NCBI GenBank assembly: GCA_035533075.1
Contig: DATLUO010000262.1
Location: 1 to 49,267, forward strand
DNA: 49,267 nucleotides
Direction of reading: 5' to 3'
From: Pirellulales bacterium
GTDB lineage: Bacteria > Planctomycetota > Planctomycetia > Pirellulales > JAICIG01
The notes under the pieces are model-generated. The model was not told where the DNA came from. It searched no databases and saw only the letters and a program-made list of their open reading frames with translations. The position numbers were made by a program, and so were the translations under genes. Positions 25,020 to 33,755 of the stretch are shown piece after piece; positions within the stretch are counted from its first letter, which is position 1; every line of letters starts with the position of its first letter.

Positions 25020-25160
25020 ATGGCGCTGTCTTCGTCTGCCACCAGATTTATCTGCTGGTTGACGGCTAACAGCCCCCATCATTCGTCAGCCGGCTTCGGC
25101 CGGGCTTCCGTGTTGGCTTTAGCCCTGTGCGTCGCGGCGGCGGCAAGCACGACGCGGCAA

Positions 25161-25247
25161 CCGAGGGAGGCGAAAAGGGCGGCGCGGGGCCGTTCGTCTC
25201 TGGCGTCCAATCACCGCTCCACCGGCACAAGGCCGTCAATGGTGGCG
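25161..25247. repeat. R2 repeat, copy 1
   Basis: Begins near GAGGGAGGCGAAAAGGGCGG, contains CGTCTCTGGCGTCCAATC and ends with the hairpin-like CCACCGGC-N5-GCC...GGTGG. One of five copies (25651, 25861, 28119, 28441) flanking the TIR-like/Mrr-like operon. Confidence 0.7.
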
Positions 25248-25448
25248 ACTTCGGGAACCACACTTCTTCCAACGGCCGCCGGCCGTCCGTAGCCCGGAAC
25301 GGGCGTCATTCGGTAGCCCAGGGTGCAGCGCAGCGGAACCCTGGGTTACCGGGCCGCAAAAACCTCGTCAGCCGCAACGCGGCGAAACTCCCCCCATTCC
25401 CGTCACGCCGACAAGCACGAAGCCGGCGCGCCGCGCCCGCCGCGTCTT

Positions 25449-25479
25449 CCCCGCCACGACCCGAGCCTGCCTCGGTCGA
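25449..25479. repeat. R3 hairpin repeat, copy 1
   Basis: CGCCACGACCCGAGC then CTGCCTCGGTCGAG forms a stem CGACC(C)GAG / CTCGGTCG with a CCTGC loop. Copies with a CTTGC loop lie at 26282-26310 and 28318-28345. Conserved stem with changing loop suggests a structured RNA or a mobile palindrome. Confidence 0.65.
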
Positions 25480-25506
25480 GATCCAACGATGAATGTCAAG
25501 TGCGTC

Positions 25507-25531
25507 GGGCGTGATGACGCCCCGTTTTTTT
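25507..25531 (+). terminator. Rho-independent terminator
   Basis: GGGCGT-GATG-ACGCCC forms a 6-bp stem followed by CG and seven T. It is the clearest intrinsic terminator in the island. No protein gene ends before it, so it may close a transcript starting upstream, possibly a non-coding RNA that includes the R2 and R3 hairpins. Confidence 0.65.
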
Positions 25532-25650
25532 AACTCATGGTGCGGCTCCTAAAGGATGGTGGGGCGTCGAGTGGTTCGGGCGAACGGGTTCCTTAACGGG
25601 TTCCTCTTCTCTGTTCTGGGAGAGTTGTGGGCGGCACGCACGGCACGGAA

Positions 25651-25850
25651 ACCGACGTCGGCGAAAAGGGCGGTGGCGGCCATTTGTCTCTGGCGTCCAA
25701 TCACCGCTCCACCGGCACAAGGCCGGAATGGTGGCGGGGCGAAGCAGCCCCGTTTGGCCGTGCGAGGATTCGCCACGACGCGGCGCGGTTCCGCCGCGTC
25801 GCCACGGCGACGACCGCGAAGCGGGCGCGCCGCGTCCGCCGCGTCGCGGC
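25651..25850. repeat. R2 repeat, copy 2, with extended 3' part
   Basis: Contains GGCGAAAAGGGCGG, GTCTCTGGCGTCCAATCACC and CCACCGGCACAAGGCCGG. It continues into GGGGCGAAGCAGCCCC (a hairpin) and TTTGGCCGTGCGAGGATTCGCC, then GCGGGCGCGCCGCGTC. The same extension follows copy 4 at 28209-28310. Confidence 0.7.
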
Positions 25851-25954
25851 GCTGGCGGACGCCCGTGGCGCGCACCGTCGCCGGAGGAAGGGAGGTCGCG
25901 GCTTCCTCTCTGGCGGTCAATCACAGCACCACCGGCATAAAGCCGGATGGTGGC
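25851..25954. repeat. R2 repeat, copy 3
   Basis: GCTGGCGGACGCCCGTGGCG leads into CTCTCTGGCGGTCAATCAC-like sequence and ends with CCACCGGC-ATAAA-GCCGGATGGTGG. The upstream GGCGGACGCCCGTGGCGCGC is shared with copy 4. Confidence 0.7.
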
Positions 25955-26052
25955 TTGCGGCGCGTGAGCTAAACCACGTCCGGCGAAAGGATCAAAGGGC
26001 CGCGACAGGCCGCCGCAGCGCAAACGTGATCGACAACCGGCTGCGGTTTGGA

Positions 26053-26501: not shown

Positions 26502-27443
26502 ATGAGTTCGGCAAGCCAGAAAAACGGCCCAGCGAACGGAGCGAAAATAGTGCGCTCTGTATTCCTGTCGTATCCAGTCCGCACGGACACGTCGGTTATC
26601 CGGCGCGTGCTGGAAGGGGAAGGTGTCGGCGTTCGGTCGGACGAGGACATTGAACCGGGCGACAACTTTCGTGCGTCGCTGATCGAAGGCGTGCAGAAGG
26701 CGGACGCCGTGATCGCCGTTCTGGGAGAGCGGCCGAAGAGCTCCAACGTCTTCTATCAGATGGGGCTCGCCGACGCGATGGGGAAGCCCGTTCTTGTTGT
26801 CTCCGTCGGCGCGCCCGATCCAGTCAGTGATCTGGCCCTCTATCCGTACCTCCGCGCGCGACCCGACGACGAGGAGGCTCTGCGGTTCGGGCTCGCACAC
26901 TTCATTCACGCGCCGCACCACGGGTCGAAGCACGAGCGGGATTACAAGACTGCGACGAAACCAATTGGAGAACTGGTTGACGCCTTTCTTGCCCGGCTAC
27001 ACGCGGACCAGGCCATCAGGGAAGACGAGCTGGTCATCATCATCGCGTCGGCGATTCGGGAGAGCGGCGTGGACACCCAGGCGAGTGTTCTTCATCGCGC
27101 CTCTGCCGAAGAGATTACGGCCGACATCGCCGTGTGGTCTGATGAACTGGAGTCACTGATTGGCAATCCGCTCCCCATCGAAGTCCGATCGTCCGTAATG
27201 ACTGCGCGCGATGCGGAGGGCGCGGCGAAGAACCTGATGCGGGCGATCGTCGGCGCAAAGGTCCGGTGGGGCCTGATCTTGTTCCTGAAAGCGACCGCGG
27301 ACGCGATGGGTGTCCTAAGCAAGTATCCGGTGCTGGCGATGTCGATCGAAGACTTCCTCGAAGGGCTGCGAAAGCGGTCGTTCGGCAGGATCGTCGCCGA
27401 TCTGCGAAACCGGGCCGTGCATGGGGCGCGTGCCGATGCCTAA
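26502..27443 (+). CDS. TIR-like domain protein with C-terminal HEPN-like motif
   Basis: 313 aa, start supported by CGGAG 7 bases before the ATG. Residues ~15-115 have a TIR-like/flavodoxin fold: 'VFLSYPVRTDTSVIRRVLE', 'ADAVIAVLGERPKSSNVFYQ' and 'GLADAMGKPVLVVSV'. In NAD-cleaving TIR proteins of this type the catalytic residue is the Glu of NVxxE; here it is Gln86, so NADase activity may be lost or changed. The C-terminal half (~150-313) is helical and ends with R302-NRAV-H307, fitting the HEPN R-x4-H RNase motif. The stop overlaps the next start by ATGCCTAA, so both proteins are made together. A defence or abortive-infection role is inferred from domains and island location. Confidence 0.75.
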   Translation: MSSASQKNGPANGAKIVRSVFLSYPVRTDTSVIRRVLEGEGVGVRSDEDIEPGDNFRASLIEGVQKADAVIAVLGERPKSSNVFYQMGLADAMGKPVLVVSVGAPDPVSDLALYPYLRARPDDEEALRFGLAHFIHAPHHGSKHERDYKTATKPIGELVDAFLARLHADQAIREDELVIIIASAIRESGVDTQASVLHRASAEEITADIAVWSDELESLIGNPLPIEVRSSVMTARDAEGAAKNLMRAIVGAKVRWGLILFLKATADAMGVLSKYPVLAMSIEDFLEGLRKRSFGRIVADLRNRAVHGARADA

Positions 27444-27972
27444 GTTCTCGGCCAAGAAAATCAAAGACCTCTTCGCCAAGTCAGACGCGGCCAAAACGAA
27501 AGTGGAGAAGGGAAAATACCTCGAAGACCTGGCCGTCTACCTGTTTCAAATGATCCCGGGTATTAGCATGACCGCGCGGGACAAGAAGAACACCTACGAT
27601 GCCGAGGAGATCGACGTCGCGCTTTGGAACGAGCAGCACGCGAGGGGCTTCAAGACGCTCAACTTCCTTATCCTTGTGGAGTGCAAGAACTGGTCGTCCC
27701 CCGTCGGCAGCATGGAAGTGAATTGGTTCCTCACGAAAATCAAGAACCGCGCGCTGGATTTCGGCATCCTTATCGCGGCAAACGGCATCACCGGCAGCGA
27801 CGAGGACAAGAGACAGGCGCACGATGTGGTTTCGAAGTCACTCGCCGAAGGCGTCCGGATGGTTCTCCTGACCCGTGACGAGATACTCGCGCTGACCGAC
27901 AGCGACGAATTGGTACGCACCGTAAAACGCAAGCTCTGCGAGCTGATTGTTTCGGGCACCGTCTGGCCGTAG
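27436..27972 (+). CDS. Mrr-like PD-(D/E)XK restriction endonuclease-fold protein
   Basis: 178 aa. The ATG at 27436 is chosen because it overlaps the previous stop by eight bases (ATGCCTAA); 27421 is an alternative. The nuclease core is clear: E29-containing helix 'KGKYLEDLAVYLFQMIPGI', 'DAEEIDVAL' (D60), 'FLILVECKNW' (E82, K84) and 'FGILIAANGITG'. This is the D-xn-ExK pattern of Mrr_cat-type restriction endonucleases that cleave DNA, often modified DNA. No DNA-recognition domain is fused, so recognition may come from the TIR-like/HEPN-like partner. Second gene of a two-gene operon in an island flanked by R2 repeats. Confidence 0.8.
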   Translation: MPKFSAKKIKDLFAKSDAAKTKVEKGKYLEDLAVYLFQMIPGISMTARDKKNTYDAEEIDVALWNEQHARGFKTLNFLILVECKNWSSPVGSMEVNWFLTKIKNRALDFGILIAANGITGSDEDKRQAHDVVSKSLAEGVRMVLLTRDEILALTDSDELVRTVKRKLCELIVSGTVWP

Positions 27973-28080
27973 ATGCGGCAGAGTCGCGTGCGACGTTGCC
28001 GGTTTTACCGATGCATGAAGAACGCCAAAGGGCGAAACACCGATAGGGCCGGCGCGGACAAAGGCCCCTTCCCTCAGCGG

Positions 28081-28310
28081 GCGTCCGCCAGCCGCCGCGT
28101 CGTGGCGGCCGGCGGACGCCCGTGGCGCGCACCTGCGACGGAGGAATGGAGACGCCGCTTCGTCTCTGGCGGTCAATCAGCGCTCCACCGCCACGAGGCC
28201 CGATGGTGGCGGGGCGAAGCAGCCCCGTTTGGCCGTGCGAGAATTCGCCTCCGCGCGGGGCGGTTCGGCGGCGTCGATAAGGCGACGAGCGCGAAACGGG
28301 CGCGCCGCGC
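28081..28310. repeat. R2 repeat, copy 4, with extended 3' part
   Basis: GGCGGACGCCCGTGGCGCGC, then TTCGTCTCTGGCGGTCAATC, CCACCGCC-N5-GGCCCGATGGTGG, then GGGGCGAAGCAGCCCCG and TTTGGCCGTGCGAGAATTCG. It combines the left part of copy 3 with the right part of copy 2. Confidence 0.7.
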
Positions 28311-28317
28311 CCTCTCC

Positions 28318-28345
28318 CGCCACGACCCGAGCTTGCCTCGGTCGA
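28318..28345. repeat. R3 hairpin repeat, copy 3
   Basis: CGCCACGACCCGAGCTTGCC then TCGGTCGAG, identical in stem to the copies at 25449 and 26282. Confidence 0.6.
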
Positions 28346-28440
28346 GCGCTGATTGAACGCCAGAAGCCGGCCACGCAAGAGACCTTCTCCCTCCCGCCTG
28401 TGCGTGCCGCCGCCGCGACGCGGCGGCGACACGCACGGCA

Positions 28441-28527
28441 ACCCACGGAGGCGAAAAGGGCGGCGCGGGGCCATTCGTCTCTGGCCTTCAATCGCCGCTC
28501 CATCCGGCACAACGCCGGATGGTGGCG
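28441..28527. repeat. R2 repeat, copy 5
   Basis: CGGAGGCGAAAAGGGCGG, TTCGTCTCTGGCCTTCAATC and a perfect hairpin CCATCCGGC-ACAAC-GCCGGATGG. This copy has the most regular stem. Confidence 0.7.
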
Positions 28528-28643
28528 ATACGATGCAGAGCAGACGCGACTCCGCGCCGCGAATGGATCGGGCGTCGCGCTGCACTCGCTCGATGCGCCG
28601 CTCCTCCTGCCCAGGCTGATGGGCGTCTTGCGGAAACGGAACG

Positions 28644-29575: not shown

Positions 29576-31600
29576 ATGGCCACAATTGAGCCGATTGATG
29601 CCGGCTCTCATTACCTAACGCTCGTCAAGAAGCTCTGGAGAGCTAACAGCGAAACCCTCGGGTTCCTTCCCGACGGAGCGTTCGATGAATACGCAAGCAA
29701 AGGCGGCATTCTCATCGCGCGGGATCGCGACGCTCTTGTCGGATACCTGCTCTACCGCCTCGGAAAGTCAAAGGCCACCATAGCGCACTTGTGCGTAGAT
29801 GAAACTGCGCGAGGTAAGGGGTATCCCGAAGAACTGGTTCGACATCTCGTTGTTCGCACAAACCATCTGGCCGGAATCGATCTGCGTTGCCGAAGGGACT
29901 TCCCGGCGTGCAGAGTTTGGCAACGGCTAGGCTTTACCGTGCTTAAGGAATCGCCTGGTCGGGCGGCGGACGGCAGTGAGCTGACGCATTTCTGGCTTGA
30001 TTTCGGGCACGCGGATCTTTTTACGAGCGAGCCGCGTTGCGCGATCGTCGTGCTCGATGCGAACGTTTTCGTCGACCTCGCGGAATGTCGGAATGAAGAA
30101 TCGCAGGGACTGCTGGCCGACTGGCTTCAAGACTCAGTCGAATTCTTCGTTACGTCCGAGCTCAACAACGACATCAATCGAGCTCGCGACCCGCAGCTTC
30201 GTCGAAAGCGGAAACAGGACGCACTGCGATTCGAGGAACTGAAACACTCGCACGACGAGTTCATGAAGTGGGAGCAGGTTATCCGGCCTTTGTTCCCGGT
30301 CTTCAAAACGGAACAAGACGAGTCTGACTTCAGGCACCTAGTTCGTGCAGTAGCTGGCGGGGCCGCCGCCTTTGTGACACGAGACGACGAACTTCTCCGT
30401 CTGGCGGACGAAGTCTATCACCTCTCAGGGCTTCGCGTGCTGCGCCCCGCTGAGCTAATCGGGCGAATCGACGAATTGGTCCGAGAAAGCGAGTATCAGC
30501 GCTTCCAGGTTGCTGGAACGAGGCGGATCAACCGGCAACGTGCAAGCGCCGCCGATGACTCGTTGATCCGCGCCGTGGCCGGCCCAAATGACCCGCATTG
30601 GAGCGTGCGCGACGGGCTCAACACTTTTTTTGCAGCTCCTCAGCGGTTTAGCTGCTTCAAAATCAGCGACAACGACGGATCGGTACTGGCGTTCTACGTC
30701 ATCGAGCAGACTTCGGGATGCCTTCGCATACCGCTATTCCGCGTGTGTCGACACAAAATCGCCGGAACGCTCGCTCGCTGCATCCTCACGCACCTAGTGC
30801 GTACCGCGGTTGGCGACGGAAAAAGCCGTTTGTTGCTTTGCGAAAGCATCGCTGCTGGGCCAGTGGAAAGCGCGTGCGCGGATCTCGGGTTCCTTCGCGT
30901 CTCAGAGGGGCACATGAAGCTCTGCCTGTCCGGGGCCTGGGGAAAGAGCAACCTGGGCCGGGCGATTGATGAGGTCGGCGTTGTATCAGACCGCATTCCA
31001 GCGATCGCAGAGTCGCTCAAAGGCGAGCTAACTCCGGCGGTGGCGTCGGAAATTGAGCACATGATCTGGCCTGGAAAGATCGTGGATGGGCCGCTCCTCA
31101 CCTACCTTTTGCCGATTCGTGCCGGGTTCGCCGCGCACCTGTTCGACGAGCATCTTGCAACTCAAGGGCTTTTTGGCGCAGACGTTGACCTAGCCTTGAA
31201 CCCCGAATCCGTTTATTATCGCTCCGCGTGTCAGCGAAACGTCAAACGGCCCGGCCGGATCCTCTGGTACGTCAGCGACGATGACCGATACCAGGGAACA
31301 AAATCGATTCGCGCCTGCTCGCGGATCGCCGAAGTCCAGGTCGGGGCGGCAAAGCGGCTTTTTCGGCAGTTTCAAAGGCTTGGGGTCTACGAATGGCCGG
31401 AGGTTCTAGCGACGGCGAAGGGCGACCCCGAAGCAGAAATCATGGCGGTTCGCTTCCACGACACGGAGTTGCTACGCCCAATTCGATGGAACGACTTTCA
31501 GTCCATTCTTAGAACGCATGGGATTAGGACGAATCTTGAGTCACCCGTCACGATTCCGGCCCGAGTCTTCGCCGCCCTGTACGCTCTTGCTTTCGATTGA
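29576..31600 (+). CDS. Multidomain GNAT-PIN-GNAT-like-EVE/ASCH-like fusion protein
   Basis: 674 aa. Residues 1-145 are a GNAT acetyltransferase fold with acetyl-CoA loop 'ETARGKGYPEELVRHLV' (76-92). Residues ~154-295 are a PIN-type nuclease: 'VVLDANVFVDLAE' (D161), 'TSELNNDINRA', and 'AAFVTRDDELL' (D270/D271), the acidic residues of VapC-like RNases. Residues ~340-455 look like a second GNAT-like domain ('LAFYVIEQTSGCLRIPLFRV', 'ADLGFLRVSEGHM'). Residues ~560-660 resemble a PUA-like EVE/ASCH domain ('GRILWYVSDDDRYQGTKSIR', 'RPIRWNDFQSIL') that binds modified nucleic acids. The next gene, another ASCH protein, overlaps its end. Acetylation, RNA cleavage and modified-base reading on one chain suggest a toxin/defence module; this is inference. 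Confidence 0.75.
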   Translation: MATIEPIDAGSHYLTLVKKLWRANSETLGFLPDGAFDEYASKGGILIARDRDALVGYLLYRLGKSKATIAHLCVDETARGKGYPEELVRHLVVRTNHLAGIDLRCRRDFPACRVWQRLGFTVLKESPGRAADGSELTHFWLDFGHADLFTSEPRCAIVVLDANVFVDLAECRNEESQGLLADWLQDSVEFFVTSELNNDINRARDPQLRRKRKQDALRFEELKHSHDEFMKWEQVIRPLFPVFKTEQDESDFRHLVRAVAGGAAAFVTRDDELLRLADEVYHLSGLRVLRPAELIGRIDELVRESEYQRFQVAGTRRINRQRASAADDSLIRAVAGPNDPHWSVRDGLNTFFAAPQRFSCFKISDNDGSVLAFYVIEQTSGCLRIPLFRVCRHKIAGTLARCILTHLVRTAVGDGKSRLLLCESIAAGPVESACADLGFLRVSEGHMKLCLSGAWGKSNLGRAIDEVGVVSDRIPAIAESLKGELTPAVASEIEHMIWPGKIVDGPLLTYLLPIRAGFAAHLFDEHLATQGLFGADVDLALNPESVYYRSACQRNVKRPGRILWYVSDDDRYQGTKSIRACSRIAEVQVGAAKRLFRQFQRLGVYEWPEVLATAKGDPEAEIMAVRFHDTELLRPIRWNDFQSILRTHGIRTNLESPVTIPARVFAALYALAFD

Positions 31601-32030
31601 GCCGCGATTCGTAGAGCAAATCCTGGCTGGCACAAAGCGAGTTGAACTTCGCCGGCGGTTTCCAGAGGTATCGCCCGGCGCCTGCGTCCTAATGTACTCG
31701 AAATTGCCGGTGGGCGCGTTGCTGGGCAGCTTCATTGTCGCACGCGTGTCGCGGCTGCCTGTGGATAAGTTGTGGCGTCGCGTCAAAGGGCTTTCCGGGC
31801 TAAGCCAACGCGAGTTCTTGCAGTATTTTTCCGGCGCGCAAGTAGGCGTTGCCGTCCACATCGACGAACCCAGCAGATCCGACCGGCAAGTTAGGCTGGC
31901 GGAGTTGCGCAAAATCTGGACAGGGTTTCACCCGCCACAAGGCTTTCGGTACGTTCATGCAGACGATCTCGCGGCGCTTGAAAGAATTGGTATTGTCAGC
32001 GCCGCCACGCCCCCTCGCAGAGCCGCTTAG
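31518..32030 (+). CDS. ASCH (PUA-like) domain protein overlapping the GNAT-PIN gene
   Basis: Up to 170 aa from ATG 31518. The ASCH domain starts at 'LLLSIEPRFVEQILAGTKRV' and contains 'ELRRRFP' and 'VLMYSKLPVGALLGSFIV', which match the family that folds like PUA and binds RNA or modified bases. Because the domain begins right there, TTG 31587 (14-base overlap with the previous gene) may be the true start, giving about 147 aa. Translational coupling with the GNAT-PIN protein is likely. It may be the partner or antidote of that protein. After 32030 there is no gene until the truncated restriction enzyme. Confidence 0.75.
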   Translation: MGLGRILSHPSRFRPESSPPCTLLLSIEPRFVEQILAGTKRVELRRRFPEVSPGACVLMYSKLPVGALLGSFIVARVSRLPVDKLWRRVKGLSGLSQREFLQYFSGAQVGVAVHIDEPSRSDRQVRLAELRKIWTGFHPPQGFRYVHADDLAALERIGIVSAATPPRRAA

Positions 32031-32276: not shown

Positions 32277-33755
32277 TCAATGCTCCGCCTCACGTTGAAG
32301 GAACTTGATTTCGTCCACGGTCAGGTCGAACAGCCGATAGACGCGATCATTCAACTCAGCTTCGACGTCGGCAATTTCTCGGGTCAACGACTCGACCTTG
32401 GCGCGGTTCTCCATCAGATACGGCTCCCATTCGTCCGCGGCTCGCGGGTTCTTGAGCGGATTTGACGCAAGCTTGAAACTCGACTTCAAGGCGTCTCCGA
32501 GCGCGGGGAGAGCAAGCCCCCACCACAACTGAGCCTTCTCGTTCAGCGTCCCAAGCGACTGGCCGTCGCGCGAGACGCCGAACGACTCGATCAGGCGCCG
32601 CTGAACATGCGATTGCAGTCGGTAGCGCTCGAGCGCTAACACCCCGCTGCGCTCGGCAAACGTGGCGATCGCGTGCCGATCCGCGTCGCTCGCCGCAGGT
32701 ATTGGGATTGCGCTCATCGACTGTGTGAAGAGCCGATACTGCCAGCGGTTGCCGCGGAGTCGTAGCGGCTGAGCGGTTTTGCTGATGTAAAACCAGGTCG
32801 TCCAGGACGAGAGTATGCCGAGCAAGTACGGGTCATCTCCAGGCACGAAGTACGCCGTGTTTCCCGCGCATCGCGCGGAGCGATCGAGACTGAACCGTGG
32901 CAACTTGCTGATGTCTGGCCACATGATCTTGGGCTGGTCGAATGCGTCCCAATATCCGCATGCGCGAAGCTCCCACCAGAACTGGCCTTGATCTTGCCGC
33001 TTTATTGCACGCTCGCGCGACGCATCAAGGTGCGCATGCACAGCCGGGTAATGTTTGGCGAAGACCGCCTCGGCCTGATCGCCAGCCCCCGACCAGGGCC
33101 AGTTGTGGTTGGCGCTCGACTTGATGGCAAGCAGATATTCGTCAGATACTTCGATGTAAAAGGGCCGCAGGTGAGTGCCCTGCACGAACGGTTTGATCAG
33201 GTCGGCGCTTCGTGGGTCTGCCGCGATCAATTCCGCGCGCTTTGCCTCACTGATCACAAAGACATCCGTCAGACCCATCAGCACTCCGCGAAGAATCCGG
33301 CCGCGGCAATACTCGTCGAGGCTCTGGCCCGCTGATGCAAGCTTTTGGCGCAACCGCCGCGCGTCGTCCGACTCTAGTTCCCAAGGTGCCGCCGACAGGT
33401 GTTCGACCGTCATTGTCGGCGAAGACAAGATGACCTCCGATAGGTTCTCAGGAGGATGGCCGCTCGTGAGCCACTTGAAGAGGCGCAATTTTCGGTCGCG
33501 CCCACCCTTTTGAAGCACAGTGATACTCGGGCGGATCATCTCGGCGTCTTCAAACGGTTGGTATTCGCCAAAGTCGACCATTGATTCGACACTCGCGTTC
33601 CCCAAGATGAATCGTCGAAGCGCTTCGCCAAAGCTCGCGCGCACCCAACTTCCTGACGTAATGAATGCGAGGCGGCCGCGCTCGCGAAGAATGTTGAGCC
33701 CAGCCTCAAAGAAGTAGGTAAAGATGTCAGCCGTGCCATCGAACGTCTGAAATAC
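32277..33755 (-). pseudogene. Type IIG restriction-modification enzyme, N-terminus missing
   Basis: 493 codons remain, opening right after a TAG at 33756-33758. The first residues read 'FQTFDGTADIFTYFFEAGLN' and 'ERGRLAFITSGSWVRASFGE', which is the middle of an Eco57I-type adenine methyltransferase (just after the NPPY motif). Then comes a TaqI_C-type target recognition part ('RGRILRGVLMGLTDVFVISE', 'NTAYFVPGDDPYLLGILSS', 'LRLRGNRWQYRLFTQSMSAI') and a coiled-coil C-terminus ('NDRVYRLFDLTVDEIKFL'). The nuclease domain, SAM motif and NPPY are gone, so it cannot modify or cut DNA. The break at 33756 marks the island edge. First possible ATG is at 33644. Confidence 0.75.

Follow-up and report, generated by a model that had tools for sequence, protein, structure and literature searches.

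R.BspD6I is one of the closest described systems. It consists of Nt.BspD6I and R.BspD6I2, and a small PD-(D/E)XK subunit is encoded beside a larger PD-(D/E)XK protein, as in the gene pair described here. The small subunit of R.BspD6I is active only when the large subunit is catalytically active (PMC6261011). However, the large subunit of BspD6I contains a sequence-specific DNA-recognition part, whereas the first gene of the pair carries a domain related to nucleoside deoxyribosyltransferases (NDTs) and TIR domains at this place, and the likeness does not amount to membership at the sequence level. The TIR proteins of SPARTA/short Argonaute (TIR-APAZ) and the TIR effectors of CBASS and Pycsar share a similar TIR fold (Z 13–14) and a defence context with the pair. 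In contrast to these systems, the pair has no APAZ, Argonaute, SAVED or STING part, the partner is a nuclease pair, and the TIR glutamate is not strictly kept. NDTs, DNPH1 and MilB-type hydrolases have the fold and a Glu-containing motif in common with the gene 1 family, but gene 1 is fused to a nuclease, belongs to a two-gene unit and has Gln at the nucleophile position in the DNA studied here. The Mrr_cat restriction endonucleases are related through PF04471, which matches gene 2 and, directly, 9 of 25 gene 1 homologues. Different from these enzymes, the pair lacks the winged-helix DNA-binding domain, and its operon encodes two halves that are paralogues. Gabija, Hachiman, Thoeris, Retron-Eco1 and Swarozyc also combine a sensor with a nuclease or an NADase. 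Genes of Gabija and Hachiman adjoin homologues of the pair, but none of the five systems contains it.

The pair was analysed in a contig of a Pirellulales bacterium (DATLUO010000262.1, 49,267 nucleotides, the whole stretch being called the window). It consists of two ORFs on the same strand, the first at 26502–27443 (313 aa) and the second ending at 27972, and the coordinates given in the earlier note are right. The features are as follows.

26502..27443, + strand: gene 1, 313 aa; fusion of an NDT/TIR-like domain and an Mrr-like PD-(D/E)XK domain (from Pfam TIR_2, AF2 and profile homology)
26550..26922, + strand: NDT/TIR-like Rossmann-type domain of gene 1, residues about 17–140
26757–26759, + strand: Gln86 codon of gene 1, at the nucleophile position; Glu in the family
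26949..27440, + strand: PD-(D/E)XK (Mrr-like) domain of gene 1, residues about 150–313, with D208, W212, E227, R229 and the terminal RNxxxHG
27436..27972, + strand: gene 2, 178 aa from the conserved start; Mrr-like PD-(D/E)XK nuclease with D60/E82/K84
27436..27443, + strand: ATGCCTAA overlap, where gene 2 begins before gene 1 ends, read from the sequence

The ORF program starts gene 2 at 27421. Homologues align to M6 of this ORF, at 27436, which gives a protein of 178 aa, like the homologues. The residues of gene 2 are numbered from 27436, and D60/E82/K84 correspond to D65/E87/K89 in the long numbering. The overlap of the two genes on one strand that was noted earlier is real, and overlapping or abutting gene ends similar to ATGCCTAA exist in most of the homologous loci. 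A dispersed intergenic repeat is located on both flanks of the pair (window 25155–25967 and 28076–28538). Its units are 70–110 bp long and 60–90% alike, and a 103-base piece of it has 17 matches in the genome over a dozen contigs. The repeat may mark an insertion or recombination hotspot.

Gene 2 matches Pfam Mrr_cat above the cut-off (E 1.6e-6) and was predicted by AF2 with a mean pLDDT of 92.7 (the alignments for structure prediction were made without proteins from plasmid records). In structural comparison it comes closest to the small subunit of R.BspD6I (R.BspD6I2), with a Z score of 11.3 over 149 of 183 residues at 3.2 Å. Nt.BspD6I, FokI, LlaBIII, AspBHI (MspJI-type), NucC and Card1/Can2 are further structural matches, and the nuclease domain of EcoT38I is matched as well. 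The catalytic D, E and K are invariant (30/30). Gene 2 is a small PD-(D/E)XK nuclease with D60/E82/K84 and without a DNA-recognition domain of its own, as had been claimed before; no known DNA-recognition domain was found in either protein. The distant relatives of gene 2 are longer single proteins with the nuclease behind other N-terminal regions. In the loci L045–L085 the nuclease is the C-terminal domain, and the N-termini are varied, some of them TPR-like by eye and one ATPase-like, which suggests that nucleases fused to sensors form a broader family.

The C-terminus of gene 1 had been described as a helical, HEPN-like region carrying R302-x4-H307. When the profile of residues 150–313 was compared with the gene 2 profile by hhalign, the two aligned over 161 columns (98.9% probability, E 1.5e-16), and D208, E227 and position 229 fell on the D, E and K of gene 2. 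An HMM of the gene 1 nuclease domain also finds the gene 2 homologues, at about E 1e-12 to 1e-6. In the AF2 model of gene 1 (mean pLDDT 85), residues 174–307 are arranged as helix-strand-strand-strand-helix-strand. These profile alignments and the predicted fold indicate that the C-terminus of gene 1 is an Mrr-like PD-(D/E)XK nuclease domain and a paralogue of gene 2. The HEPN assignment was rejected, because the model is not all-helical and has no four-to-five-helix bundle, and the profile is that of the gene 2 nuclease. The R-x4-6-H motif is present without the HEPN fold, and the motif alone does not define HEPN. What is left of the earlier description is the letters R302 and H307: they belong to the RNxxxHG end in the last helix of the nuclease domain and are conserved in the main clade. 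Over both clades the arginine is found in 21/25, N303 in 18/25 and the histidine in 19/25 homologues, and the motif is missing in the L037–L043 clade.

Within this second nuclease site, D208 and E227 are kept in all 25 homologues and K229 in 23 of them. Position 229 is Arg in the window and in L027, and the plasmid homologues also have Arg. The window gene 1 thus shows D208 and E227 but not a complete D...E-x-K site, R229 standing for the Lys, and by its sequence the site may be dead owing to Arg229. In the fold search with the whole gene 1 model, the N-terminal domain filled the list of matches, so that the missing nuclease matches are uninformative. The pTM of the model is 0.58, and the mutual arrangement of the two domains of gene 1 is uncertain.

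The N-terminal domain of gene 1 (residues 20–127) matches Pfam TIR_2 with an E value of 1.9e-8 (35.3 bits versus a cut-off of 28), while the match to Pfam NDT (Nuc_deoxyrib_tr) is weaker and below the cut-off (22.7 versus 28.8). Among the 25 gene 1 homologues, Nuc_deoxyrib_tr matches all at E 0.1 or better, TIR_2 matches 13, and the CAP12 TIR model (CBASS/Pycsar) matches 8. When the gene 1 family profile was compared with the PDB, chains of NDT, DNPH1 and CMP/hydroxymethyl-CMP hydrolases were found, with a best E value of 8e-10 (PDB 2a0k), and no TIR chain was found at E 0.01. By structure comparison, the gene 1 model matches MilB, NDT and DNPH1 with Z scores of 14–15, the SPARTA TIR domain with 14.2 and the SARM1 TIR domain with 13.8. 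The TIR-like domain proposed earlier is thus supported both by TIR_2 and by the fold. NDT is an equally good or better relative, and the domain is therefore named NDT/TIR-like.

Position 86 is Glu in 21 of the 25 aligned homologues and Gln in four, namely the window and three others, which agrees with the earlier observation that Gln86 takes the place of the usual Glu. Gln86 falls in the ELG-type motif that holds the catalytic Glu of the NDT and DNPH1 relatives. The window gene 1 therefore has neither the catalytic Glu of TIR domains nor the nucleophilic Glu of NDTs, which weakens a claim of NADase activity but not that of a TIR fold. The Gln rows in the trees need at least two separate Glu-to-Gln changes, and Gln86 is found in intact copies of two separate lineages. 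These independent changes strengthen, and do not prove, the earlier suggestion that the domain binds a nucleotide rather than cleaves NAD. As far as the entry PDB 8pqq describes it, a Glu-to-Gln mutant of an NDT was crystallised with a bound nucleoside analogue. By analogy with this mutant, a Gln variant which binds without turnover is plausible.

The gene 2 profile was searched against 84,980 genomes and gave 69 loci, the 28 closest of which have E values below 1e-27. In 28/28 of these close homologues the gene 1 nuclease domain is located directly upstream on the same strand. The fusion is intact in 25 of them; gene 1 is cut by the contig end in L035, frame-shifted in L018 and reduced to the nuclease domain in L034. 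The hosts are Cyanobacteriota, Pseudomonadota, Actinomycetota, Bacteroidota, Verrucomicrobiota, Bacillota, Acidobacteriota, Methylomirabilota and a nanoarchaeal MAG. Three copies (L028–L030) come from one Streptomyces assembly. Three plasmids, two of Agrobacterium and one of Sphingomonas, carry the intact pair. The order, strand, overlap and active sites are kept by homologues in about nine phyla, far above chance, and the distances of gene 1 and gene 2 correlate with r 0.85, a value reached by none of 2000 permutations. Conserved synteny and co-variation exclude a chance pairing of the genes.

These searches turned up no full-length gene 1 that lacked gene 2. The gene 1 profile was also run against 385 genomes of one class, where the full-length protein was found in the seed genome alone; this search has little power and added no orphan gene 1. 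The survey of homologues that had been proposed thus found the close homologues of the two genes together and not apart. The distribution is sporadic: gene 2 was found in 1 of 97 relatives and in 1 of 343 genomes of the phylum, each time in the window's own genome. In L086 (6533–8531), on a viral contig, pentapeptide repeats replace the NDT/TIR domain before the gene 1 nuclease domain, which makes this locus a variant of the two-gene unit, and from this sequence the sensor part seems to be exchangeable. The pair of L038, on a contig labelled Helicobacter pylori PMSS1, is nearly identical to that of a Kangiella MAG, and the record is probably a mis-binned or mislabelled metagenome contig.

The proteins within about 6 kb of 15 pairs matched 145 PADLOC families at E 1e-15, in contrast to 10 families for matched control stretches of the same genomes (one of the 15 control stretches and a few proteins were left out). 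PADLOC families are redundant, so 145 and 10 are not counts of systems, and the matches in the control stretches were mostly generic helicases and the like. When 20 large neighbours were scanned singly, clear defence genes were found in 5 of the 15 neighbourhoods, so not every neighbourhood has one. Among the neighbours are Gabija GajA and GajB in L040, GajB in L032, a short pAgo in L041, a PLD-helicase in L043, and PDC-S73 with an OLD/AriA-like protein in L031. On the Agrobacterium plasmids, a gene pair of DUF1837 and DEAD-box proteins, which we take to be typical of Hachiman, is located close to the two-gene unit. In the window, PDC-M11-like genes, a DUF4145 gene and a type IIG-like fragment are found 3' of the pair. 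The overlapping ORFs at 29576–32030 (+ strand) encode a GNAT and PIN fusion and an ASCH-like protein, which match the two halves of the PADLOC candidate PDC-M11; with the GNAT part before PIN, this may be an unusual PDC-M11 variant. The match of the 455-aa ORF at 32277–33644 (- strand) to type IIG restriction-methylation enzymes is confined to their C-terminal part, beginning at profile positions of about 640–740, and the ORF looks like a truncated or broken type IIG enzyme.

The GC content is 0.56–0.62 in the pair and in the genes that lie beyond the intervening repeat, down from 0.65–0.68. The patchy distribution, the defence neighbours and the GC drop together indicate horizontal spread in defence islands, and the neighbourhood survey agrees with the view that the pair is sited like a defence system. 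The fusion, the patchy distribution and the defence linkage also rule out that gene 1 is a stand-alone housekeeping NDT, a reading by which the earlier note would have been overturned.

No component model of PADLOC 2.0.0 matches either protein up to E 1, no NCBIfam model names the pair, and PHROGs gave only weak matches, to PHROGs of unknown function. No description of the pair was found in the literature on TIR/NDT and Mrr/REase pairs that was covered, with most subscription papers and all supplements outside its scope. Nor did the pair turn up when the main texts of the papers on DefensePredictor and on the phosphorothioate system were searched by term. Within PADLOC, NCBIfam and this literature, the combination is not a named system, as had been supposed. 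All the domains are of known kinds. What appears to be unnamed is their combination, in which an Mrr-like nuclease is duplicated and one of the copies is joined to an NDT/TIR-like domain.

We favour, with moderate confidence, the reading that the pair is a mobile two-gene system against phages or mobile elements, with a heterodimeric DNase that is gated by the NDT/TIR-like domain. By analogy with R.BspD6I, the nuclease domains of gene 1 and gene 2 would probably pair as a heterodimer, with one strand cut by each. The NDT/TIR-like domain would replace the sequence-recognition domain as the gate of this nuclease pair; upon infection, it would bind a nucleotide-type ligand, or oligomerise, and DNA cleavage would be licensed. 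In the window copy, gene 2 would be the intact catalytic subunit, and gene 1, with Arg for Lys in the nuclease site and Gln for Glu in the NDT/TIR site, may be mainly regulatory. The nuclease Asp and Glu are kept more strictly than the NDT/TIR nucleophile, which favours the nuclease as the effector and the NDT/TIR-like domain as the sensor. Counting against this, most homologues retain Glu86, as an NDT/TIR enzyme would, although an enzymatic role in the Glu-bearing copies remains compatible with a nuclease effector. The earlier proposal of a sensor working with one nuclease keeps its pairing of sensor and nuclease, but is recast: since gene 1 ends in a domain paralogous to gene 2, the sensor is joined to one of the halves of what is probably a two-subunit nuclease. 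A more specific form of the gated DNase can be put forward only tentatively, as one possibility of several. Here an NDT/DNPH1-derived domain, its catalysis lost in some lineages, would bind a (deoxy)nucleotide made or altered by the phage and switch on the heterodimeric DNase, as a ligand-gated split restriction enzyme with an exchangeable sensor (the pentapeptide repeats of L086).

The main rival reverses the roles, and we consider it rather unlikely. In it, the NDT/TIR-like domain is a toxic effector, an N-glycosidase of NAD or nucleotides, and the paired nuclease folds sense DNA. Such coupling of sensing to NADase action is found in TIR-APAZ/short Argonaute, Retron-Eco1 and Swarozyc. The structural matches to the SPARTA and SARM1 TIR domains beside NDT and DNPH1, the Glu86 retained in 21/25 and the CAP12 TIR matches in 8/25 fit this view, and DUF4062 TIR-like proteins are infection-activated NADases (PMC13174449). 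However, two separate lineages have intact copies with Gln at the nucleophile position, while both nuclease sites are retained. If the nuclease folds did no more than sense DNA, there would be no need for D and E to be invariant in both proteins, and L086 has the nuclease pair without the NDT/TIR domain. Less likely than this reversal, and improbable in our view, is a modification-dependent or conventional restriction enzyme, whose heterodimer would cut foreign DNA directly with the NDT/TIR-like domain as a structural or base-recognition module. Gene 2 does match the nuclease domains of MspJI/AspBHI and EcoT38I, and neither the homologous loci nor the annotated plasmid loci include a methyltransferase in the unit, which is also the case for modification-dependent enzymes. 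Against it, both proteins lack a known DNA-recognition domain, and those characterised relatives that the searches found use the fold of the NDT/TIR-like domain to bind nucleotides. A two-step DNA attack, in which the NDT/DNPH1-like domain strips phage DNA or nucleotides of modified bases before the nuclease pair cuts what results, is very improbable, since it requires the Glu nucleophile, which is Gln in the window and three homologues, and the known relatives act on free nucleosides or nucleotides and are not known to act on DNA, even though the closest solved relatives by profile are NDT, DNPH1 (a 5-hydroxymethyl-dUMP hydrolase) and CMP/hydroxymethyl-CMP hydrolases.

As a candidate immune system the pair is compact, occurs widely and has no name, and it brings TIR/NDT nucleotide chemistry and split restriction nucleases together in one operon. 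The natural Glu/Gln variation at position 86 offers a ready test of whether immune TIR/NDT-like domains act as enzymes or as ligand sensors. If the gating model is true, the pair would be a restriction enzyme under metabolite control, and in its ligand-gated split form it would recognise infection by nucleotide chemistry instead of by DNA sequence.
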